Assembly (NCBI GenBank): GCA_025435555.1
Contig: JAIWWG010000072.1
Location: 117,437-181,436 of the forward strand
Length of the DNA: 64,000 nt
From: Chytriomyces cf. hyalinus JEL632
Taxonomy: Eukaryota > Chytridiomycota > Chytridiomycetes > Chytridiales > Chytriomycetaceae
Direction: 5' to 3'
Part shown: positions 572 to 63,682 of the stretch, one piece after another
How positions within the stretch are numbered: the stretch's first letter is position 1
How the letters are laid out: each line of letters begins with the position of its first letter
The notes under the pieces: model-generated
The model's database searches: none
Seen by the model: the letters and a program-made list of their open reading frames with translations, nothing else
What the model was told of the DNA's origin: nothing
Position numbers and translations under genes: made by a program

Positions 572-645
572 CGCCCGGTAGTGGGATCGAACCACTGACC
601 TTGAGGTTAACAGCCCCACGCTACTACCAGCTGAGCCAACCGGGC
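572..645 (-). tRNA. tRNA-Asn (anticodon GTT)
   Basis: On the reverse strand the sequence folds as a cloverleaf: acceptor GCCCGGT pairs perfectly with ACCGGGC, the anticodon stem TGGGG/CCTCA encloses loop CTGTTAA (anticodon GTT), and the T-arm carries GGTTCGATCCC (the B box). The discriminator base is G. There is no intron. Downstream on the same strand lie a CTTTTG and then a run of seven Ts near 552-560, suitable Pol III terminators. The 5' end is only nine bases from a retrotransposon insertion, so the element abuts the expected transcription start. Confidence 0.95.
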
Positions 646-654
646 GGATGCTCA

Positions 655-846
655 TGTTGCGTAATAACGCCAGTTCCTCCATTGTGTCCATTTTACTTGA
701 CTTTAATTTTTCCTTCAAAATTCCGGAGATAGAAACTTCTCGAAAACAACAAAGTTCAAATCACCCTCACCACAGCAGTATAAAAGCCAGTGTCCTTCTA
801 CCAATAAAGATCATCTATCAACCAACATTGCTTTATTTCCGTAACA
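655..846 (+). repeat. 5' LTR of element 1
   Basis: 192-bp direct repeat of 5701-5892. It starts TG and ends CA, contains a TATAAAAG box near 779 and an AATAAA polyadenylation signal near 802, so U3 and R boundaries lie in its last third. The left neighbour GCTCA is the target-site duplication. Confidence 0.95.
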
Positions 847-848
847 TT

Positions 849-861
849 TGGTAGCATCGGC
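849..861 (+). other. Primer-binding site of element 1
   Basis: TGGTAGCATCGGC starts two bases after the LTR. The complement ends in GCTA-CCA, as expected of a fungal initiator tRNA-Met 3' end (initiator tRNAs begin AGC and end GCU-ACCA). The same 13 bases occur in element 2 (63010-63022), and at least the first 12 occur in element 3. The identity of the priming tRNA is inferred. Confidence 0.75.
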
Positions 862-864
862 TAG

Positions 865-2031
865 ATGTCCTCCTCCTCTACCAGCCCAGAATCCATGACC
901 AACGAGCCATTTGCTGCTTCCCAAGCCTCAACATTCTTTGCCGACGTAAATGGCCGTATTGTGACCACCAATGACATTGTATCAACCTTGGATGAACTTG
1001 TTCAGTTCATGAACACACTCAAGACCCGTGACACTGCCAGCTTTGCAACCTCACCAAAACCAATTGAAGAAACCAAGCTCCTGTCTCGAAAGGACTTCCG
1101 TATGCCAAGTATCAAGCCACTACCATTCAGTGGAAAACTTGGAAACAGACCTGCCCATGAAATCCAGAACATTCTTGACGACTACCTTGAACGTAACTTG
1201 GAGAACTGCCGTCTCTACAACCTTGCACCTGATATCAACTCAATTACTCACAATGGCCAACCGACATATGTTCAATTTGTTTCCTCTGGACTTACCGACA
1301 CTGCACGCCAACGCTGGAGACAATTACCAGAATCAACAAGAGATGAAATGACTTGGCCAGAATACGCCCAATGGATCAACAAACGTTTCGGATCTCAGCT
1401 AGCACTCTCCCAAGCCATTGACGCATTGGACACCATTCAGCAAACAGGATCAGCAGTCATCTACTCAAGTGCCTTCAATGAATTAGTATCTGCAACTTCT
1501 TCTGCCAATGTTCACCTTCCCGAAGCCTTCCTTTGTGTAAAGTACCTCAATGGACTCAAGCCACATCTTCAAGTGATTCCAGAACTCGGTAACATCTCTG
1601 GTGACCTCAGTAAGCTCCAAGCAGAAGCAGAACGCCTTGATGATGTGTACTACCGACGAAACATGCGTTCCAAGACCTCAGCCTATCCTCGTAACCGTTT
1701 CAAGCTCCAAGCCCAACAAGTTCCTCCAGCCAGTCACTCTCCTGGACCTTTCCAGAATGAGCCCATGGACCTAGATGCTCTGCAGCAAGGGAGGCCTTCC
1801 AGACTTCTCACTCCAGTCCAGAAAGCTGAATACCGTTCAAAAGGATGGTGTGTTTATTGTCAGTCCAAAGATCATTCAATCGACAAGTGTAGCAAGCTCA
1901 AGAACAAAGTTACCTTTGAAGAAAGACCACGACCCAGCCGATCCTTCCATCAAGAAAGACACCCTTCAGTCAATCATGCCACACAAGCAGATTCAGACTC
2001 AGAGCCAACAATTGATGAAAGTGCCTGTTGA
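865..2031 (+). CDS. Gag-like capsid polyprotein, element 1
   Basis: 388 residues. The central part (roughly residues 75-260) is a retrotransposon Gag domain with the typical W-x(n)-F pattern, here QRWRQLPESTRDEMTWPEY and INKRFGSQ, and a helix-rich capsid region. Near the C terminus WCVYCQSKDHSIDKCSKL is a CCHC zinc knuckle (C-x2-C-x4-H-x4-C) for RNA binding. The protein should assemble virus-like particles that package element RNA. The stop at 2029-2031 lies inside the overlapping pol frame, so Pol must be made by +1 frameshifting. The start chosen is the first ATG after the primer-binding site. Confidence 0.92.
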   Translation: MSSSSTSPESMTNEPFAASQASTFFADVNGRIVTTNDIVSTLDELVQFMNTLKTRDTASFATSPKPIEETKLLSRKDFRMPSIKPLPFSGKLGNRPAHEIQNILDDYLERNLENCRLYNLAPDINSITHNGQPTYVQFVSSGLTDTARQRWRQLPESTRDEMTWPEYAQWINKRFGSQLALSQAIDALDTIQQTGSAVIYSSAFNELVSATSSANVHLPEAFLCVKYLNGLKPHLQVIPELGNISGDLSKLQAEAERLDDVYYRRNMRSKTSAYPRNRFKLQAQQVPPASHSPGPFQNEPMDLDALQQGRPSRLLTPVQKAEYRSKGWCVYCQSKDHSIDKCSKLKNKVTFEERPRPSRSFHQERHPSVNHATQADSDSEPTIDESAC

Positions 2032-5000
2032 AAGCCTTGTTCTCAGCAAGCCCTGCCAACCTTTACCCTCAGTCTCAGCCTTACCAGAAAACAAAACAAC
2101 GGAAAATTTTACCTCTGATTGCCCCCGTCAAACAAACGCAGCCACACTATCCCTCCACCACCTGCAAGAACGCACCAACCAGCCAGGACTACTCATTTGC
2201 CAAGGTGTAATCAATCACCAGCCAGTATCCATTCTCATTGACTCTGGAGCCAATCCCAGTTTCATTCAATCCAAATATGCCAGCAGCTACGTGGACAAGA
2301 ATTCCAGTACCGTATTGATCAAATTGGCAGACAAAACAATGATTCGAGGGCATTGTACCCTCCCAATTCCCTTTATTGTCAAAGACAATGAATTCCAAGA
2401 TTCCCATTCCTTCACGGCAGTCCCGTCTCTAGCCTACGACCTGATCCTTGGAAAGGACTGGTTAAACAAACATAATCCTGTTATCGACTGGCCGTCAAAT
2501 ACCGTAAAGATCAAAAACCATACCTGGACCTGCGCCACTCCAAGAAAAATTCCAGAGATCCTGTCACCAATACAGTTCAAGAAAATCATCCGTAAACCCA
2601 TGCACGACATGCTGTGTGGAGTCCTAATTCCTTCCGAGCCTTCGAATGGCCCTTCGCAATTGACTACTGAAGATAGCAATCAGCTTGACAGAGAAGCAAA
2701 ATCGAAATTGAATCCAGACCTGCAGCAGCTTTTGGATCGTTATCCAAAAGTGTTTTGTACATTCGAGGGACTCCCTCCATCCAGAACCACCGACCTGAAG
2801 ATTGAAACAAGCCCAGAATCCACGCCACCATGGCGACCAATTTATCCAATGAACGAGAAAGAGTTGTCAACCCTCCGAGACGAGCTTGATTTCCTACTCA
2901 AGCATGGCCGAATCAAAGAATCCATTTCACCGTATGGAGCCCCAGTATTCTTTGTCAAACAAAAGGACAAACTCAGATTAGTTTTTGACTACCGAGCATT
3001 GAACAAACTCACTGTCAAGAATCGAGCACCCTTGCCCAACATTCTGGAGTCCCTAGACCGCCTGGGAAAAGCCAAATTCTTCAGCAAAATTGACCTTGCC
3101 TCTGGTTACCATCAAATAAGAATTCTACCTGCCGACACACACAAGACTGCATTTCGATCAAAGTACGGACATTTCGAATGGATCGTGATGCCATTTGGAC
3201 TTGCAAACGCGCCCGGAACCTTCCAAGCCACAATCAACTCAATTTTTCGCGACCTGGTCGACCGTTTCCTTTCCTGCTACATTGATGACCTGTTAATCTA
3301 CTCCGAGACCTACGCAGAACACATGAATCACCTCAGTATAGTCCTCCAACGCCTTCAAGAAAACAATTTCCATGTTCGACTTCACAAGTGTCAATTCTTC
3401 ACTGAATCATTGGAGTACCTTGGTTACAAGATTTCTCAAGGGAAGATCAGCGTCTTACCAAGTCGATACATGGCCATCCAGAATTACGACGAGCCCCAGT
3501 CCTTTACTGATCTACGTGGTTTCCTTGGACTAGCCAACACTATCCACCGTTTTGTAAGAAATCATGCCAGCCTGTTAGCACCTCTATCAGACCTCCTTAA
3601 AGGACACAAAACCGTACCTTTCCATCAAGTTTGGACCAAAGAAGCACAAGACCTGTTTCAGAAAGCCAAGAAAGCCCTAGCTGACCCATCCTCACTTGCC
3701 ATGTTTGACCCAAACAAACCAGTCCACTTGTACACCGACTGGTCTAAGCGAGCCATCTCCAGTTACGTAGCCCAGCCAGACGAGAATTCGATAGATCAGC
3801 CGGTAGCCTTTCACTCACGCAAATGTAATGACGCCGAATCAAAATACCATCCCTATGAAGGAGAAATATTGGCACTCGTCAAAGCACTACGACATCATCG
3901 AGCTTACGTTCATGATGCCCGAGTTTTTGTGTTCACGGACCATCAGTCCCTTCGGAGAATCCTTGACCAGCCAAAACTTCGCCCAGTCCATCACCGCTGG
4001 ATTGCCGACATTCTTGCTTACGACTTCCAGATTCAGTGGAAACCTGGACAATGGAACAAGATTGCAGACGCACTGTCACGATTAAAGCACTCTCAAGAAA
4101 TTGGAATTCAAGTCTCACCTGGCGTAAATCAGACAATTTCCAACATCCAAGAGCCTCAAGCTGACCAGTTATTTGCGACTGAGCTTTCGATAACAGAGGA
4201 CCTGATGGATGACATCAAATCCATGAACCCAGATGATCCGCAATACCAAGAAATCTCAAAGTACCTTATCGACCCAGAAGATCCTGATACATTCGAGAAT
4301 GACCCTGCATTGGTTCCAGCTTCCCTCAAGAATACGATTTCCAGATACAAACTTCACAGCGGCCTATTGTATTACACCGACAAGACTCATGCAAGAGTTT
4401 TCGTCCCAATGCCCCTTCGAAATCAGCTGGTTCGATCTGCTCATTCGTATGGACCAGTTATTCACAACAATTGGGAACGAACAGCCGAAAGACTTACAAG
4501 ATATTTCCACTGGCCCAAGATCCACAAAGACATTCAGCAATTTGTCCAATCCTGCGACGCGTGCCAACGGCACAAGATTGCACGACGACTCCCGTATGGA
4601 TTGCTCCAGCCTCACGCAATCCCACCACACCCTTGGCACACCATCTCAATGGATTTTATTACCAAACTCCCACAAACCAAGTCTGGACACACTGCACTCA
4701 TGGTCATTGTTGACTCCTTCACCAAACGCACCCGACTTTTTCCCTGCCATGACACCTCCACCGCCAAGGACATTGCAAACATCTTTTTCAACGATGTATT
4801 CAAACACCACGGACTCCCTCGACGATTCATCAGTGACCGAGACTCAAAGTTCACGTCAAACTTCTGGAATTCTTTGTGTCAGTCTCTCAAGATAGAATTG
4901 GCCATGACAACAGCTTACCATCCCCAAGCCGACGGGCAAACCGAGCAAAAGAACGACTGGGTACTCTCTGCCCTACGTTCCGAAGTTAATTACTGGCAAG

Positions 5001-5710
5001 ACGACTGGGATGAGCACTTACCCAAGGTTGAATTCGGTATAAATGACACTGTGAGCTCCACCACTGGCTACACTCCATACCATCTGGAATACGGGCGACA
5101 CCCTGCATCATTCATTGATGTTGGATTAACACCATATGATCCGCTCACGCTGAGAGATTTACAAGCCACTCACCAAGCCACATGCGACAGAATTCGCGAC
5201 TCCCAAGACCGTTACGCATCCGCTGCCAATCGACGACGCCTAGAATCGCCTTTCCAGGTCGGAGATCTTGTCCTGCTATCGTTGCGCGATTTTCGGCCCA
5301 AGATTCTTGAAGACCGACCGATCGCGAAATTGTCGGACTGCTACTCTGGACCTTACGAGATCACAGAGCTGATCGGCGATGTTCCGCTGTGTCGACTCAA
5401 GATTCCTGATGAATGGAATATCCACAAGGTCTTCCACCCTGAGAAATTAAAAATGTATTACTGGGACTCAGCGAAACCTCACCCGCTGCAGTCGCTCCCG
5501 CCAGATTTACGAACCATCGAATCGGTGCTCGCGGCGCGGAAACTTCAAGGAAAAACTCAGGTCCTAATAAAATGGAAGGATCATAGCCCCATTTTCAACT
5601 GTTGGTTAGATGCCACTCCAGAGCTACGCCAAAGACTCAAGAAAGACGTACATGAACCCAAGCAACGACCTTTCTCATCGCGTACGCTCTTGGAGGCGGG
5701 TGTTGCGTAA
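1775..5710 (+). CDS. Pol polyprotein (protease, RT, RNase H, integrase, chromodomain), element 1
   Basis: Open frame of 1311 codons in +1 relative to gag, overlapping gag by 257 nt; the ATG at 1775 lies within gag and is probably not used. Visible domains: aspartic protease with LIDSGANPSF near residue 155; reverse transcriptase with the YIDDLL catalytic pair near 500; RNase H with LYTDWS near 650; integrase zinc finger (H-H-C-C, ending CDACQRHK) near 900-935; integrase DDE core with MDFITKLP, SDRDSKF and E in DGQTEQKN near 958-1055; and a chromodomain-like tail with VLIKWKDHSPIFNCWL near 1265-1280. The final codons and the stop are supplied by the first bases of the 3' LTR. No internal stop is present. 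Confidence 0.95.
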   Translation: MLCSKGGLPDFSLQSRKLNTVQKDGVFIVSPKIIQSTSVASSRTKLPLKKDHDPADPSIKKDTLQSIMPHKQIQTQSQQLMKVPVESLVLSKPCQPLPSVSALPENKTTENFTSDCPRQTNAATLSLHHLQERTNQPGLLICQGVINHQPVSILIDSGANPSFIQSKYASSYVDKNSSTVLIKLADKTMIRGHCTLPIPFIVKDNEFQDSHSFTAVPSLAYDLILGKDWLNKHNPVIDWPSNTVKIKNHTWTCATPRKIPEILSPIQFKKIIRKPMHDMLCGVLIPSEPSNGPSQLTTEDSNQLDREAKSKLNPDLQQLLDRYPKVFCTFEGLPPSRTTDLKIETSPESTPPWRPIYPMNEKELSTLRDELDFLLKHGRIKESISPYGAPVFFVKQKDKLRLVFDYRALNKLTVKNRAPLPNILESLDRLGKAKFFSKIDLASGYHQIRILPADTHKTAFRSKYGHFEWIVMPFGLANAPGTFQATINSIFRDLVDRFLSCYIDDLLIYSETYAEHMNHLSIVLQRLQENNFHVRLHKCQFFTESLEYLGYKISQGKISVLPSRYMAIQNYDEPQSFTDLRGFLGLANTIHRFVRNHASLLAPLSDLLKGHKTVPFHQVWTKEAQDLFQKAKKALADPSSLAMFDPNKPVHLYTDWSKRAISSYVAQPDENSIDQPVAFHSRKCNDAESKYHPYEGEILALVKALRHHRAYVHDARVFVFTDHQSLRRILDQPKLRPVHHRWIADILAYDFQIQWKPGQWNKIADALSRLKHSQEIGIQVSPGVNQTISNIQEPQADQLFATELSITEDLMDDIKSMNPDDPQYQEISKYLIDPEDPDTFENDPALVPASLKNTISRYKLHSGLLYYTDKTHARVFVPMPLRNQLVRSAHSYGPVIHNNWERTAERLTRYFHWPKIHKDIQQFVQSCDACQRHKIARRLPYGLLQPHAIPPHPWHTISMDFITKLPQTKSGHTALMVIVDSFTKRTRLFPCHDTSTAKDIANIFFNDVFKHHGLPRRFISDRDSKFTSNFWNSLCQSLKIELAMTTAYHPQADGQTEQKNDWVLSALRSEVNYWQDDWDEHLPKVEFGINDTVSSTTGYTPYHLEYGRHPASFIDVGLTPYDPLTLRDLQATHQATCDRIRDSQDRYASAANRRRLESPFQVGDLVLLSLRDFRPKILEDRPIAKLSDCYSGPYEITELIGDVPLCRLKIPDEWNIHKVFHPEKLKMYYWDSAKPHPLQSLPPDLRTIESVLAARKLQGKTQVLIKWKDHSPIFNCWLDATPELRQRLKKDVHEPKQRPFSSRTLLEAGVA

Positions 5711-5892
5711 TAACGCCAGTTCCTCCATTGTGTCCATTTTACTTGACTTTAATTTTTCCTTCAAAATTCCGGAGATAGAAACTTCTCGAAAACAACAAAG
5801 TTCAAATCACCCTCACCACAGCAGTATAAAAGCCAGTGTCCTTCTACCAATAAAGATCATCTATCAACCAACATTGCTTTATTTCCGTAACA
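5701..5892 (+). repeat. 3' LTR of element 1
   Basis: Matches 655-846 without a difference that I can see. The purine stretch GGAGGCGGG directly before it is the likely polypurine tract and is also pol coding sequence. GCTCA follows at 5893-5897. Confidence 0.95.
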
Positions 5893-5897
5893 GCTCA

Positions 5898-6173
5898 TAA
5901 AGGGGAATTGACCAATACCTGCGGCGTGGCTACGTGATCAATTAAGGAGTTTGGATTGAGTTGGAGAGTGCTAAGAACAGAGAGAAGATTGAGAGGAGAC
6001 TGATCTTTATTGAGGTGATAATGCACGCTTTAAATAGCGTTACAGGATAAAGAGGAAGTAAACGATTGGTGAAGGGGCATTGTGGAGGGTGTGTCATTGT
6101 ATTCGGTCAAGAAAAAGGGTGTCCATTGTTCTCAATTAGAGACGCGTGACGTAATCCGACAGATTACGTAACA
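5898..6173 (-). repeat. Solo LTR of the element-3 family
   Basis: The reverse complement aligns along its whole length with the LTR at 63355-63682 except for one 52-bp repeat unit present only there. It starts TGTTACGTAATC and ends CCCTTTA where element 3 ends CCTATCA, so the terminal CA has mutated. GCTCA flanks it on both sides (5893-5897 and 6174-6178), showing an original 5-bp target duplication and loss of the internal region by LTR-LTR recombination. It contains an AATAAA signal. Element 1 later inserted exactly into its left GCTCA copy. Confidence 0.9.
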
Positions 6174-6220
6174 GCTCAAGGTAAAAATAGCCAAAATATA
6201 ATAATATTTACAACGGAATT

Positions 6221-28619: not shown

Positions 28620-28653
28620 TTGGTCTCAAATCAAGCAAGAAAACTCGCTGAAC

Positions 28654-28685
<32 letters not shown>

Positions 28686-28950
28686 CAACAGGGATTCCCC
28701 TAGTAACGGCGAGTGAAGCGGGAAGAGCTCAAATTTGAAATCTCACTGGTTTCCAGTGCGAATTGTAGTTTCAAGAAGCGTTTTCGGGGACGACTTGGGT
28801 CCAAGTCTGTTGGAACGCAGCGCCAGAGAGGGTGAGAGCCCCGTTCGGCCCGATGTTCGTTCCTGTATGATACGTTTTCAAAGAGTCGCATAGTTTGGGA
28901 ATGCTGTGCAAAGTGGGTGGTAAATATCATCTAAAGCTAAATATTGGCGA

Positions 28951-28984
<34 letters not shown>

Positions 28985-29190
28985 ATGAAAAGAACTTTGA
29001 AAAGAGAGTTAAATAGTACGTGAAATTGTCAAAAGGGAAACGCTTGGAACCAGTATTGGGCCTAGATTATCAGCCGCAAGGTGCACTAGTCTAGGTCCGG
29101 GTCAGCATCAGTTTGGTTTGGAGTAAAAAACCAGTGGAAGGTAGCTTCGGTGTTATAGCCGCTGGTCATGCTCTGGACTGGACTGAGTTC
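28620..29190 (+). rRNA. Partial 28S (LSU) rRNA, 5' D1-D2 part only
   Basis: Contains CTCGCTGAACTTAAGCATAT (LR0R region), the GGAGGAAAAGAAACCAACAG and AGTAACGGCGAGTGAAGCGG motifs, AACAAGTACCGTGAGGGAAA and much of D2 (GTCAGCATCAGTTTGG). About 570 nt of the roughly 3.3-kb LSU is present. After GGACTGGACTGAG the canonical continuation (towards CTTGAAACACGGACC) is absent and unrelated sequence follows. Conserved positions look intact, so it is either a recent partial copy or an assembly join. It cannot make functional rRNA. Confidence 0.9.
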
Positions 29191-29417
29191 CCGTCAAAAG
29201 CCGACAAATCTCCATCAATAGGGGCACCTTCGTGGAACCATCACGTCAGAATTTTAAACCCGCCTCGCGCAACCGTGTCGGCATTGTAGGAAAGCTATGC
29301 AATGTAGCGGGGCGCCGTCGCCTCCGCTTGTAAGATTGCAGGAAACCATCATCTCGATGTCTCCGTATTTGTTGTTCTAAAGCACTGCTGGTGCGAAGCT
29401 CCAAGAAAAAGCAAAAA
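29191..29417. other. Unassigned sequence between LSU fragment and tRNA-Thr
   Basis: GC-rich start (CCTCGCGCAACCGTGTCGG, GCGGGGCGCCGTCGCC) but not recognised as rDNA; no gene seen. Confidence 0.4.
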
Positions 29418-29493
29418 TGTGCCTCAGACCAGGATTGAACTGATGACCTTCTCCTTACTAGGGAGACGCGCTACCGCTACGCCACTGAGGCAC
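29418..29493 (-). tRNA. tRNA-Thr (anticodon AGT)
   Basis: On the reverse strand GTGCCTC pairs with GAGGCAC, the anticodon stem TCTCC/GGAGA encloses CTAGTAA (AGT), and the T-arm is ATCAG-TTCAATC-CTGGT. The discriminator is A. No intron. No retroelement lies within several kb. Confidence 0.92.
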
Positions 29494-57538: not shown

Positions 57539-57829
57539 AATCACCCTACTATTTTGGCATATTGTCGCAGGCATCTGAGACTTCAAAATGAATGGTTTTT
57601 TTTGTACTCTTGATTCACCCGTCAGCCTGTCAGCCATTCAAAAGACGTTCACAGCAACCGAGTCCTTTTTCATGTGCTGCATCGAATAAACTGCCTGGGA
57701 GCTAATTTGCTCGTTCACACACAAGCCGAGTTGGCTGCAACAACGATTGAGCACACAAAAATCGGCTTTTTGAACGCACACAGAAACCTCATCGGAGAAG
57801 TGAATAAAGCATAATTACAAATGAATTAC
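57539..57829. other. Interval left of element 2
   Basis: No tRNA, 5S or other Pol III gene was found on either strand; ATTAC at 57825-57829 is the target-site copy. Confidence 0.5.
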
Positions 57830-58154
57830 TGTTACGGAAGTAGTCAGGAGCTCGATTGCAGCTTCAAGACTGGGAGAGGACTTGAGAGGAGTTGAGAGAG
57901 TTAAGAGATTATTGAGAGACTTTCTTTTCTTTTATTGAATCAAGAAAGGCCTTCTTAAATAGCCTTTGTGGCAAATGTAAGGAAGACAACAGTGGCACTT
58001 GAAATGATAGAAAAAGTAATAACGAAGACGCGATCGTGTCTGGGGAGTGTTAGAGTGTTGGAATTGCTGTGAGTAAATTTTGTGTCTGTGGGAATTTTGA
58101 TTGACGTGGCGAAGCTTCTGGACGTGCGTGACGGAATCTGTAGATTACGTGACA
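57830..58154 (-). repeat. 3' LTR of element 2
   Basis: 325 bp, TGTCACGTAATC...CTTCCGTAACA in element orientation. Supplies the last codons and the TAA of pol. Confidence 0.95.
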
Positions 58155-61100
58155 CCCGCCTCCAAGAGCGTACGCGATGAAAAGGGGAGTGAACTTGGCG
58201 GAGGTTGGTCTTGCTTGACGTGTTGCATGAGTTCTGGAGTCGCGTTTAACCAACAGTTGTAGACAGGGTGGTGGTCTTTCCATTGGATGAGGACTTGCTT
58301 GTGACCGTCAAGAATACGAGAAGAGAGGACTTTGTCAATGACGCGTAAAGCAATGGGCTGGTTGTCAAGAGGATGTTTGGCTGTGTCGAAGAAGTAAGGT
58401 CGAAGTTTTTCAGGGTGGAAGACAGGGTGGACTCCCCAATCTGTGGGAAGAGCTAGCTTGCAGGACGGGACAGGTCCGACAAGTTCGATGATCTTGTAGG
58501 GGCCGGAGTACTGTTCAGAGAGCTTGTTGGTCTGTCGGTATCGAAGGTTGGGAGGCTTGAATTCCTTGGCTGAGACAAGAACTAGATCTCCAACTTTGAA
58601 GGGGGATTCGAGGCGCTTGCGATTGGCAATGGCAGCGTACTTGTCTTGAGAGTCACGAACTCGATCCTTGGCAACTTGGTATTCTGCGCGGATGTCCTTG
58701 ATAGAGAGGGAGGTGTCAGGCGGGAGGTTGATGTTGATCATGGAGCGAGGGTGGCGACCGTACTCGAGGAAGAAAGGTGTGTAACCAGTACTTGAATTGA
58801 CTGTATCGTTGATCCCAAATTCGATCTTGGGTAGGTGGATGTCCCAGTCGTCTTGGTAGGGAGCAACAAAGTGTCGTAGTGCTTGGAGGATCCAGTCGTT
58901 CTTTTGTTCTGTCTGGCCGTCAGTTTGAGGATGGGAAGAGCTGGAGATCGTCAGCTTGATTCGGAGGGACTTGCAGAGTGCTTGCCAAAAGTTGGAGGTA
59001 AACTTGGTGTCTCGATCAGAGATGAAATGGACTGGAATACCATGGTGCGGGAAGATGTGAGTTTCGAAGAGATTGGCAATATCACGTGCAGTTGAGGTGG
59101 TGTGGCACGGGATTAATCTTGTTCGTTTGGTTCCAGAGTCGACAACTACCATGAGGGCATCGTATCCTGACTTGGTGAGAGGGAGCTTGGTCATGAAGTC
59201 CATGGAGCAAGTGTGCCATGGGAAGGGCGGGACGTCGTGAGGCTGGAGGAGTCCATAAGGGGCGTGGCGTGCTACCTTGAGGCGTTGGCAGTTATCGCAG
59301 TTCTGGCAGAGTCGCTGGACATCGCGATGGAGTTTTGGCCAGTGGAAGTATCTGGTGAGGCGTTCGGAGGTGCGTTCCCAGTTGTTGTGGATTGCTGGAC
59401 CGTAGGAGTGAGCTTTCTTGAGTAGCGAGTTGCGGAGAGGGGCTGGAACGTAGAGTCTTGCGTGGGTTTTGTCAACGTAGTGGAGGAAACCGTCGCGGAG
59501 TCGATATCTTGAGATCTGAGGGAGGAGGTGCTTGGGAGCCTTGGATGGGTCGTGGTCGTAGGTTTCTGGGTCCAGTGGGTCAACTAAAAACTGCGCTATT
59601 TCTAAGAACTGGGGGTCGGTAGTGTTCATGTCCTTGATATCGTTCATGAGGTTATCAGTGATGGTCAGGGTCGTGGTGTTGAGCAGGAGGTAAGATTCTG
59701 GGATCTGGACGGTAGAATGGACGGTGTTTCCTTGGAGGTTGACTTGAACGGAGGCATCAGTTGCGAATCTTCTTCTTGACAGTGCGTCAGCAATGGTGTT
59801 CCACTCCCCCGGAGTCCACTGGATCTGGAAATCGTAGGCCAGCAGGTCGGCTAACCAGCGATGGTGGACAGGGCGGAGCTTGGGTTGGGTGAGGATGTGG
59901 CGAAGGGACTGGTGGTCGGTAAAGGCGAGGATTTGATTGCCATGAATGTAATGGCGAAAATGGTTGAGGCATTCAACAAGAGCGAGGATTTCGCCCATGT
60001 AGGGGTGGTACTTGGATTCTTCTGGCTTGAGCTTGCGGGAGTAGTAGGCAATGGGCTGGTCAGTTCCGGTAGAGTCTGGTTGGGCGATGTAGCCACCAAT
60101 GGCGCGGGCGGACCAGTCGGTGTAAAGATGGACAGGAAGTTCAGGGTTGAAGATGGCGAGCAATTCTGGAGAGGCGAGGATCCGTTTGATGTTGATGAAA
60201 TGGCTGCGGGCTGTGTCATTCCACTTGTCGGAGAAGGAGGTAGTCTTGTGGTCACGGAGGATGTCTGAGAGAGGTGCAATGAGGGCGGCGTGGTGCTTGA
60301 TAAAGCGATGGACGGTGTTGGCGAGTCCCAGGAAGGAACGAAGTTCGGAGTAGTTGGAAGGTTCTTCAAAGTCAGTGATGGAGCTGGTTCTGGATGGTAG
60401 GACAGAGATGGAACCTCTAGCAATCCAATAGCCAAGGTATTCGAGTTCTTGCTGGAGGAAGGAGCACTTGGAAAGGCGAACGTGGAGCTTGTTGGCTTGG
60501 AGGCGTTGCAGTACTTGGTCTATGTGCTTGAGGTGGTCTTTGAGGGTCTCGGAGAAGATGAGGAGGTCGTCAATGTAGACAGTGAGGAAGGCGTCAATGA
60601 AGTCACGGAATATGGAGCCGAGGGTAGTCTGGAATACGGGGGGAGCATTTGCAAGGCCAAAGGGCATAACGACCCATTCGTAGTGGCCATACTTGGTGCG
60701 GAAGGCAGTCTTGTGGATGTCGGATTCTTGGATGCGGATCTGGTGGAAGCCGGAGGAGAGGTCGATCTTGGTGAAGTACTTGGCTTTGGAGAGGCGGTCG
60801 AGGGACTCGAGGATGTTTGGGAGGGCAGCGCGATTCTTGATGGTGAGTTTGTTCACGGCGCGGTAGTCGAAGACAAGGCGTAGTTTACCCTTTTGCTTGA
60901 CAAAGAAGACAGGAGCTCCGTAAGGGGAAGTGGAGGCTCTGATGCGTTGGTGCTTGAGGAGGTAAGTGATTTCTTCTTGGAGGGCCTTGAGTTCTGGGGC
61001 GCTCATTGGGTAGATTGGTCAGTAGGGAGGGCTGGAGTTAGCAGAAGGATCTACATCGATCTTCATGTCGGTAGGTCTGGATGGCGGTAGGCCCTCGAAT

Positions 61101-62479
61101 GGGGCAAAGACATCTGGATATCGGTCCACGATCGTCTGGAGGTTTGGCGGGAGAGAGGTACGTATAGATTCGTCGGCTCTGTCACTGTCGGACGTAGTAA
61201 CCTTTATCTTTTGAGGCAGGATGGCTCCGAGGAAATCGTCGGGCTGAAGGGTCTGGAGGAGATTGATGAATTGCTGCGCGGTAAGGACTTCCGGAGAGGA
61301 ACGCGGAGAACGGCATTTCCAGCTGTGTGGACCAATGCAGACATGGTTTGTTGGCCAGTCAATGGAGGGATTGTGGGCATCGAGCCAGTCTTTTCCGAGG
61401 ATCAGGTCGTATGCGAGGTCAGGGACAGTAGTAAAAGAACGGTAGTCTTGGAAGGAAGTATTGTTTATTTTCACTTGTAGAGGCTCGGTACGCTGGCCTT
61501 TAACAACAGAACCATTGGCGAGCTTGATCTTGCAGGCTTGAGGAACGAGGGACTTGTTTTGGAGGAACGGTAGGCTTGAGTTGATGAAACTTGGATTGGC
61601 TCCAGAGTCAATGAGGATGGAGATGGGGTGTTCATTGATGGTACCTTGGCAGACGAGGAGGCCGGGACTGTCGGCGTAGGGTGTGGAGTGCTGGGTCTGG
61701 ACTTGGAACAGGGGAAGCTTGGGACAGTGGACTTGAACGGAAGGAGCAGGGACAGTAACTGGGGTCAGGTGGTCGGGTGGATTGTCAAAGGGGAGGGCAG
61801 AGAACCAATTAGAGTTCGACTTCGCTGTCTGCTTCTTCACCTTCGGCTTGGGTTGAGGCATTGTTAATTCTGGCTGGGGGCTTGGTGGCAAGCTGGGCTT
61901 GACGGTTACGGAGTTTGGAGCAGTGGTCGGTATCATGGTCTTTGGCTTGACAGTAAACGCACCAGCCATTGGAACGGTAGAGTGCTTTCTGTTCTGGGGT
62001 GAGACGTGGGTAGGGTGTTGTTTGCTGAGTGTTCCCAAGGTCCATCGGGTCGTTGGTTTCGGGGATGGCTGTTTTGAAGGAGTGGCCTTGGGCTGATCGA
62101 AAGGACTGATTGGTTGAAGCGCGGGACGTGGAGGCCATTGAGGGGTTCTTGCGAATTTCAGCGGCGTTGCGTTTGTTGTGACGGAAAGTGAGGTCATTAA
62201 GTTTTTCAGCTTCTTGTTGGAGGTGGTCAAGGTCTTCGTCGATGGCAAAGATGGCTGGGTTGGTACGGATGTGGAACTTGAGGCCTTGGAGGTACTTGAC
62301 GCAGAGATGCTTGACTGGGTACTGGACACTTGAGGCGGCAATAGCAGAGACGAGTTCATTGAACTTGGAGGTGTAGAGGGTGGCTGAGCTGGTCTGTTGG
62401 AGGTCTTCCATGGCTTCAATGGCTTGCTTGAGAGTGAGGTGGGAACCAAAGGCTTTCTGGATCCAGGCGGCGTAGTCAT
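58145..62479 (-). CDS. Pol polyprotein of element 2, interrupted by one TGA
   Basis: The frame 62479-61019 ends at a TGA (61019-61021) and resumes in the same frame to 58145. Where element 1 has Trp-Arg-Pro-Ile-Tyr-Pro before the RT, this copy has a stop in place of the arginine codon (CGA to TGA type change). Otherwise intact: protease LIDSGANPSF, RT YIDDLLIF, RNase H LYTDWSARAIGGY, integrase zinc finger ending CDNCQRLK, DDE with SMDFMTKLP, ISDRDTKF and DGQTEQKN, and chromodomain-like VLIQWKDHHPVYNCWL near the end. Pol is in +1 relative to gag. The copy should be defective for RT and integrase unless the stop is read through. 61019-62479 alone is protease plus the N-terminal spacer. Confidence 0.93.
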
Positions 62480-62939
62480 TCCAGGTCATGTGGTGGCGTT
62501 CTTGTTTGGGGAAACGGCGCCAGGCAACACGGGCAGTTTCAGAGAGACCAGAGGAAACAAATTGGACGTAGGTAGGCTGGTTCTGTTGGGTCAGGTCATT
62601 GGTGGAAGGAGCAAAACCATAGAGGGTACAGATTTCACGGGAGCGTTCGAGGTAATCGTCGAGGTAGTTCTGGATTTCATGAGCGGGACGGTTGCGGTGG
62701 TTCCCAGAGAAGATGAGGGGCTTGACAGCTGGCATTCTGAAGAGAGGCAATGGACGTTGGATGGTGGCAGGAGGTTCGCTTGGGGTGGTCTGGACTGGTA
62801 CTGGAGGTGTGCGGAGGGCTGCTACTTCGTTGTAGAGGTTGTCGAGGGCTTCACGGTACTCAGAGAGTTGGTCTTCGTACCTCTGGATTACTGCTTGAAA
62901 CTGGACTTGGACTTGTTCACTTGGGGCTTCTGGATTCAT
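61809..62939 (-). CDS. Gag-like protein, element 2
   Basis: 376 residues starting MNPEAPSEQVQVQFQAVIQR. A coiled-coil-like start (YEDQLSEYREALDNLYNEV) is followed by the Gag capsid domain (ARVAWRRFPKQERHHMTW, QKAFGSHLTLKQAIEAM) and a CCHC knuckle CVYCQAKDHDTDHC. Intact. The stop at 61809 lies in the pol frame overlap. Confidence 0.93.
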   Translation of the reverse strand: MNPEAPSEQVQVQFQAVIQRYEDQLSEYREALDNLYNEVAALRTPPVPVQTTPSEPPATIQRPLPLFRMPAVKPLIFSGNHRNRPAHEIQNYLDDYLERSREICTLYGFAPSTNDLTQQNQPTYVQFVSSGLSETARVAWRRFPKQERHHMTWNDYAAWIQKAFGSHLTLKQAIEAMEDLQQTSSATLYTSKFNELVSAIAASSVQYPVKHLCVKYLQGLKFHIRTNPAIFAIDEDLDHLQQEAEKLNDLTFRHNKRNAAEIRKNPSMASTSRASTNQSFRSAQGHSFKTAIPETNDPMDLGNTQQTTPYPRLTPEQKALYRSNGWCVYCQAKDHDTDHCSKLRNRQAQLATKPPARINNASTQAEGEEADSEVEL

Positions 62940-63009
62940 TTCTTGATTCGTGATGGGACGCGTTTTTCTTGGGGTTTTCTTGGAGGTCGGTAGTTACTTG
63001 GAGGAATTT

Positions 63010-63022
63010 GCCGATGCTACCA
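63010..63022 (-). other. Primer-binding site of element 2
   Basis: TGGTAGCATCGGC on the reverse strand, two bases after the 5' LTR, identical to element 1. Confidence 0.8.
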
Positions 63023-63024
63023 AT

Positions 63025-63349
63025 TGTTACGGAAGTAGTCAGGAGCTCGATTGCAGCTTCAAGACTGGGAGAGGACTTGAGAGGAGTTGAGAGAGTTAAG
63101 AGATTATTGAGAGACTTTCTTTTCTTTTATTGAATCAAGAAAGGCCTTCTTAAATAGCCTTTGTGGCAAATGTAAGGAAGACAACAGTGGCACTTGAAAT
63201 GATAGAAAAAGTAATAACGAAGACGCGATCGTGTCTGGGGAGTGTTAGAGTGTTGGAATTGCTGTGAGTAAATTTTGTGTCTGTGGGAATTTTGATTGAC
63301 GTGGCGAAGCTTCTGGACGTGCGTGACAGAATCTGTAGATTAAGTGACA
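63025..63349 (-). repeat. 5' LTR of element 2
   Basis: Differs from 57830-58154 at two sites near its outer end (A for G, A for C on the plus strand). Flanked by ATTAC at 63350-63354. Confidence 0.95.
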
Positions 63350-63354
63350 ATTAC

Positions 63355-63682
63355 TGTTACGTAATCAACTCGATTCCGTCACGCGTCTCTAATTGAGAAC
63401 AATGGACACTCTTTTTCTTGACCGTACACAATGACATCACCTCCACAATGCCTCATCACCAATCGTTTCTTGACTGTACACAATGACATCACCTCCACAA
63501 CGCCTCATCACCAATCGTTTCTTTCCTCTTTATTCAGTAACGCTATTTAAAGCGCACGTTATCACTTCAATAAAGATCAGTCTCCTCTCAATCTTCTCTC
63601 TGTTCTTAGCACTCTCCAACTCAATCCAAACTCCTTAATTGATCACGTAGCCACGCCGCAGCTCTTGGTCAATTCCCTATCA
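63355..63682 (+). repeat. 5' LTR of element 3
   Basis: 328 bp, TGTTACGTAATC...CCTATCA. Contains two tandem copies of a 52-bp unit (about 63417-63520, beginning CTTGACCGTACACAATGACA), AATAAA near 63570 and a TATTTAAA-like box near 63544. Confidence 0.92.

Follow-up and report, generated by a model that had tools for sequence, protein, structure and literature searches.

Position-specific integration of sister Ty3-group elements in front of tRNA genes and tRNA-like sequences in a chytrid-like fungus

Ty3-group retrotransposons of at least three families target RNA polymerase III (Pol III) promoters in a chytrid-like fungus, and their insertions lie within a few nucleotides of one position upstream of tRNA genes. 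The analysis concerns a 64,000-nt stretch, here called the window (C213:117437-181436; C-numbers denote contigs of the assembly searched, which comprises 37.78 Mb in 242 contigs). The window carries a tRNA-Asn gene, a complete element bounded by long terminal repeats (LTRs), here called element 1, a solo LTR of another family, and a second Ty3-like element near the opposite end. These give the family labels used below: family 1 (element 1), family 2 (the solo LTR) and family 4 (the element at 57830-63349).

Distance between insertions and tRNA genes

A tRNA gene adjoins 53 of the 86 insertion records retrieved from the assembly (16, 22 and 15 in families 1, 2 and 4). One record, on C199, sits between two tRNA genes, giving 54 contacts, and in all of them the LTR is faced by the 5' end of the gene. 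The gaps between LTR and gene are 7, 8, 9, 10, 11 and 12 nt in 7, 20, 19, 5, 2 and 1 cases, respectively, so that all 54 contacts fall within 7-12 nt and 39 of them measure 8 or 9 nt. The duplicated pentamer lies between -3 and -12 relative to the gene at the extremes and mostly between -4 and -9. Perfect 5-bp duplications were found in 49 of the 64 records with both flanks read (15/17, 20/26 and 14/21 for families 1, 2 and 4). With respect to the gene, 27 insertions have the same and 35 the opposite orientation (n = 62), and no firm bias is claimed. By chance, 0.07 tRNA contacts would be expected in 89 insertions, and the probability of at least 53 is 7e-140; this model treats all 1887 loose tRNA candidates as genes with an 8-nt window at either end, and 89 is a provisional count. 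The gap peak, the chance expectation of about 0.07 and the recurring stacks with the same pentamer (see below) indicate that position-specific targeting to Pol III promoters is real. The original prediction had inferred such targeting from the window and proposed a genome-wide map of distances to tRNA 5' ends, in which a sharp peak would support it; the peak is present.

The insertion lists are lower bounds, since about 40 candidates were scored per search. LTR searches returned at least 41, 45 and 40 matches for families 1, 2 and 4 (about 40 best scored of 56, 75 and 53 candidates). A pol search returned 36 matches, from which nine family-2 copies without a listed LTR were taken; eight were used and the copy on C156 was dropped. 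LTR matches were paired by hand into the 86 records (28, 35 and 23 for families 1, 2 and 4). Excluded before the count were an LTR fragment (C166:282.8k), five family-2 fragments (two on C188, two on C64, one on C63), the family-4 LTRs C123:78084, C190:184055, C190:190327, C173:75329 and C90:325307, four of which adjoin family-2 insertions, and the remaining pol matches whose LTRs were unlisted. The predicted partner flanks of C188, C156, C112, C232:84.8k and C178 (left), which lay off any LTR end, and C156:166k, where the flank read into the internal region, were not used. Some 105-150 nt were examined beyond each LTR, and the gap was taken from the LTR end to the gene start, the latter fixed by T8 of the tRNA. 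Aragorn called the tRNA in 47 of the 53 records; the other six, on short flanks, were assigned from their first bases (C204, by eye; C215; C178; C207, twice; C187).

Two side observations come from the same assembly. On C165 (189241-192614), a tRNA match (189241-189312) and a family-1-like pol copy (189507-192614) are neighbours, separated by enough space for one LTR, judged by coordinates only. Matches to the copia reverse transcriptase (RT) domain number 152.

The association was also examined starting from tRNA genes. Among the 63 best-scoring tRNA matches listed, which were chosen independently of the insertions, six have the LTR end of family 1, 2 or 4 at most 10 nt upstream by coordinates (C38, C166, C65, C240, C223 and C199), and four of the 30 tRNA genes with flanks read carry family 1 or 2. 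An upstream element common to a tRNA-Lys gene on C188 and a tRNA-Ala gene on C168, 96% identical between them, stops 8-9 nt short of each gene (L067, L088; C188:251877, C168:320143). Over 157 nt, it shows 72-73% similarity to element 1, and it probably represents another targeted Ty3-like family. A tRNA gene on C13 has a partial family-1 LTR whose end lies 36 nt away. Other common upstream blocks do not end at the gene and occur mostly among tRNA genes of the same type.

Stacked insertions and tRNA-like targets

In the window, the pentamer GCTCA was predicted to flank element 1 and the solo LTR in series, with the proximal copy 5-9 nt upstream of the tRNA-Asn gene. The three copies lie exactly at the LTR borders, and the distance agrees with the tRNA span given by Infernal (Table 1). 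GCTCA occurs six times within 646-6178 (the others at 1896, 4439 and 5143), with LTR borders at three copies only; a chance recurrence is ruled out by the exact borders and by the generality of the pattern across the genome. Element 1 (655-5892, each LTR 192 bp) has the Pfam domain order protease, RT, RNase H and integrase between its two LTRs, as in the Ty3 group, and among solved structures its pol best matches Ty3 Gag-Pol 7q5b (E = 3.4e-124). The solo LTR starts with TGTTACG on the minus strand at 6173; its opposite end reads CCCCTTTA, compared with CCCTATCA in other copies, and GCTCA still adjoins both ends. The two LTRs of element 1, next to the gene, are identical, whereas one end of the solo LTR farther out is atypical. 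The family-2 element would have inserted first, being now reduced to a solo LTR, and element 1 later, between it and the tRNA-Asn gene.

Similar stacks were found at other tRNA genes. Beyond tRNA-Val on C224 come a family-2 insertion, a family-1 insertion and a further LTR, and TCAAC recurs at all junctions (three times). On C187, family 2 and family 4 follow tRNA-Glu with three copies of ACAAG, and on C65, CTTCG marks the two junctions of a stack in which family 1 and family 2 follow tRNA-Thr. A one-base shift of the second site is seen on C166 (AGTAA, GTAAT) and C57 (GGGCT, GGCTT), and a two-base shift on C232 (CATTT, CACAT). This reuse would follow if each insertion left the promoter intact and the pentamer again at its former distance from it; the element nearest the gene would then be the youngest. 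Stacks may thus be read as a record of insertion order at single tRNA genes, and they show how finely the site is set, with a shift of 0-2 nt at the same gene.

Two further observations concern these loci. A repeat starting near AGAGAATAGG or GAGAATGGG adjoins the distal pentamer at C23, C187, C57, C64 and C173:177k and is possibly one more stacked family. On C207 (about 72.9-78.7 kb and 116.7-122.2 kb; L168, L169, L170, L177, L182), two opposed family-2 elements at tRNA-Thr and tRNA-Asn have traded the halves of their duplications (AAGCA and TAACT), which would fit an inversion of the intervening stretch by recombination; an assembly error may also be the cause.

The 33 records that do not adjoin a tRNA gene comprise ten at tRNA-like sequences with A and B boxes, eight in stacks, three with tRNA-like targets recognized by eye (C25, C7 and C236), one ambiguous record with B-box-like sequence only (C173:259735) and 11 without an assigned class. 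The stacks that hold these eight records end at a tRNA gene that was seen (C57, C224; C213, C166, C65, C63; C187, C232:291k), the last being a composite with LTRs in opposite orientation. At the ten A/B-box sequences, the gap is 7-10 nt. Targets are not confined to tRNA genes.

One spot in a dispersed repeat, repeat (a), is used by families 1 and 2 (with A and B boxes at C219, C173:315k, C164, C73, C134 and C210; by eye at C236 and C7). A joined-flank query of this repeat found at least 40 uninterrupted copies, 39 matching the whole query and one matching to base 243, among 40 of 156 candidates scored (one copy is L021:1780-2613), indicating that the empty site exists. At C73, repeat (a) measures 873 bp from TG to CA and has the 5-bp duplication GGGAG (L052:1178-1500, L042:1777-2331). 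Its A and B boxes lie about 325 bp inside, and it looks like an LTR with an internal Pol III promoter. Aragorn found no tRNA in stretches of this LTR-like repeat at five places (C73, C219, C236, C8 and C173:315k). Repeat (b), a second tRNA-like repeat, is used by families 1, 2 and 4 (C25, C70, C167:332k and C178). Rfam gave no tRNA match at 15 loci with non-tRNA targets, repeat (a) among them, indicating that these are A/B-box sequences and not called tRNAs; they would presumably bind Pol III factors.

The gap was also compared among tRNA types. It averages 8.8 nt at Leu and Ser tRNA genes (n = 9) and 8.6 nt at others (n = 39), although the B box of Leu and Ser genes lies about 9 nt further, suggesting that the gene start or the A box is the reference point for the gap. 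The dinucleotide CA with C at -4 is present in 13 of 23 tRNA upstream regions (of 30, six that carry an LTR end and, by hand, L069 were excluded). It is a plausible transcription start, which we take as a hint only.

At the other end of the window, the LTRs of the family-4 element are 323/325 identical. The contig ends with the window (64000), and a Pol III gene is predicted beyond it, past the family-2-like LTR at 63355. Elsewhere in the window, a piece of 28S rRNA (28644-29259; RF02543 positions 24-664 of 3401) lies 160 nt from a tRNA-Thr gene (29420-29491).

Table 1. Features of the two insertion loci in the window
Feature	Position	Strand	Basis or remark
tRNA-Asn(GTT), Pol III gene in front of which the insertions sit	572..645	-	Infernal, 54.7 bits; Aragorn span 571-646, one base more per end
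GCTCA, gene-proximal, -5 to -9 from tRNA-Asn; 5-bp duplication of element 1	650..654	+	sequence
Element 1 (family 1) 5' LTR, TGTTGC...GTAACA	655..846	+	sequence
Primer-binding-site-like TGGTAGCATCGG	849..860	+	read from sequence; presumed resemblance to the initiator tRNA-Met 3' end
gag of element 1	865..2031	+	PF03732, E = 3.5e-09; open reading frame
pol: protease, RT, RNase H, integrase, SH3-like domain (first ATG nominal)	1775..5710	+	Pfam
Chromodomain-like segment, integrase tail	5513..5608	+	PF00385, below cut-off (see text)
Purine-rich tract ahead of 3' LTR	5690..5700	+	sequence; alike in family 2
Element 1 3' LTR	5701..5892	+	192/192 identical to 5' LTR
GCTCA, second copy; border common to element 1 and solo LTR	5893..5897	+	sequence
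Solo LTR, family 2	5898..6173	-	at least 45 family matches in genome; other copies match from base 6
GCTCA, distal copy	6174..6178	+	sequence
ATTAC, duplication of second Ty3-like element	57825..57829	+	sequence
Family 4 element; 325-bp LTRs 57830-58154 and 63025-63349	57830..63349	-	sequence
ATTAC, second copy	63350..63354	+	sequence
Family-2-like element 5' LTR, continuing past contig end	63355..63682	+	sequence

Proposed mechanism and alternatives

In all likelihood, three or more sister families of the Ty3 group integrate in both orientations at a fixed place before Pol III promoters and duplicate 5 bp of the target, most likely guided by TFIIIB as in Ty3. The integrase of Ty3 binds TFIIIB and directs insertion 1-4 bp from the start site (PMC5911963), and it is positioned by its chromodomain, the part that contacts TFIIIB (PMC8632968). 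In the fungus studied here, TFIIIC would place TFIIIB through the A and B boxes, and the integrase complex would dock on TFIIIB and cut at the transcription start or slightly upstream of it. A copy of the pentamer and an intact promoter at the old distance would remain after each insertion, and the next element would reuse the same bases.

Several points weigh against this reading. The perfect duplication is missing in 15 of the 64 records with both flanks read, some of the misses being due to composites and truncated LTRs. Eleven of the 86 records have no assigned target (family 1: C188, C186, C8 and C59; family 2: C112, C90 and C13; family 4: C213, C90, C196 and C59); no Pol III target was found on either side of the truncated LTR at C13, and at C59, read on both sides, no Pol III gene was reached. 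A 5S gene search of the genome found no such gene to serve as a further target. The chromodomain-like segment in the integrase tail of element 1 scores 17.1-17.9 bits with PF00385, under the Pfam cut-off of 25.1. The control is small, comprising five places of the LTR-like repeat (a). Finally, TFIIIB contact and start sites are points that we infer.

A different contact is the most serious alternative, though an unlikely one: the elements may be directed to Pol III genes by Pol III itself, TFIIIC or local chromatin instead of TFIIIB. Sequence data do not reveal the bound factor, and Ty1 uses Pol III subunits (PMC5911963). However, Ty1 insertions spread over about 1 kb (PMC5911963), whereas the contacts found here lie within 6 nt of each other, and the elements are related to Ty3, not to Ty1. 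It is far less probable that the pentamers arose by recombination or duplication of inserted elements and not by separate integrations. The exchanged duplication halves of the opposed family-2 elements on C207 are an example of such recombination, but stacks combine different families, and most stack members for which both flanks were read carry a separate 5-bp duplication, at times displaced by one base (C166, C57).

Unspecific integration followed by survival of harmless insertions near tRNA genes would be in line with the usual account of such sites as places where genes are avoided (PMC5911963, PMC5006619). Selection would not, however, yield a window of 7-12 nt on the 5' side only, or repeated insertions at one spot inside a dispersed repeat; as a sole cause, survival bias was rejected on these two grounds and has a negligible probability. 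Recognition of a short DNA motif in the target is equally implausible. Of 40 pentamers oriented by the gene, 31 begin with A or G and 27 end with C or T, which is a weak bias, but the pentamers are diverse, the constant feature is the distance to the gene start, and among records with an assigned target none is clearly a motif copy away from Pol III promoters. A sequence motif as the determinant was rejected because of this diversity. Integration guided by TFIIIB remains the preferred explanation.

Related elements, host and significance

The three families are closely related. Their integrase pieces are 63% (families 1 and 4), 65% (1 and 2) and 88% (2 and 4) identical, the family-2 piece compared stopping at a stop codon. 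The flanks of the primer-binding site and polypurine tract are similar between families, and the chromodomain-like segment of element 1 is similar in family 4. By these sequence likenesses, families 1, 2 and 4 are sister families and not independent, so that one ancestral or inherited habit is enough for their shared targeting. The original prediction of two distinct families sharing tRNA targeting holds for the sharing, but the families are sisters. Its early-diverging fungal host is supported by a HemW-like protein of the window that is 86-89% identical to three Chytriomyces hyalinus records; the top relative of element 1 pol is a record named Chytriomyces confervae (54%).

Position-specific integration at Pol III genes is already known in ascomycete yeasts and Dictyostelium (PMC5911963) and, as reported co-localization, in Rhizopus oryzae. 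Ty3 of Saccharomyces cerevisiae resembles the present families in its Ty3-group pol, in insertion within a few nucleotides of one point upstream of tRNA genes, in the use of both orientations and possibly, by a weak match, in the chromodomain-like integrase tail; the LTR end here is measured 7-12 nt from the gene start, not from the transcription start. Tj1 of Schizosaccharomyces japonicus is also a Ty3-group element with a 5-bp duplication (LTR 244 bp), and most of its listed tRNA insertions lie 5-11 nt from the mature tRNA, but it uses one orientation only (PMC4600332), in contrast to the 27 same and 35 opposite insertions here. Tyl3, Tyl6 and Ylt1 of Yarrowia and Tca8 of Candida are Ty3-group elements found upstream of tRNA genes (PMC5911963); their hosts are ascomycetes, and they were compared by description, not sequence. 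DGLT-A and NLTR-A of Dictyostelium species also insert position-specifically upstream of tRNA genes, but DGLT-A lies 13-33 bp upstream, and NLTR-A is a non-LTR element at 2-6 bp (PMC5911963). Ty3/gypsy elements of the basal fungus Rhizopus oryzae are reported to co-localize frequently with tRNA genes (PMC2699053). Repeat (a), LTR-like with internal tRNA-like A and B boxes, resembles Helenus, a group of LTR elements with a tRNA-like promoter (PMC10886601). By its internal tRNA-like sequence, it is possibly a Helenus/TRIMp3-like LTR in a chytrid-like fungus; the word 'chytrid' does not occur in the main text of PMC10886601. No chytrid case of Pol III targeting was found in the open-access literature searched. 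Two aspects are apparently new: the chytrid-like host, and the use of a Pol III-like promoter within another LTR-like repeat as an insertion site.

A broader view can be offered tentatively, and we hold it to be somewhat doubtful. The elements might read any assembled Pol III initiation complex rather than the tRNA gene itself, and other mobile repeats that carry promoters (the 873-bp LTR-like repeat and the second tRNA-like repeat) might act as moving landing pads that multiply safe sites. Single-site Pol III targeting may have arisen early in a single fungal Ty3 lineage, shared by yeasts, Rhizopus and the chytrid-like fungus, and not repeatedly.

The results extend base-precise Pol III targeting to a fungus that is very likely a chytrid, far from the well-studied yeasts, and document three or more families with dozens of natural insertions in one genome. 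The pentamers also predict Pol III start positions in this fungus. Judging from the tRNA-like promoters that serve as targets within another repeat, a Pol III promoter may be enough for targeting without a working tRNA gene.

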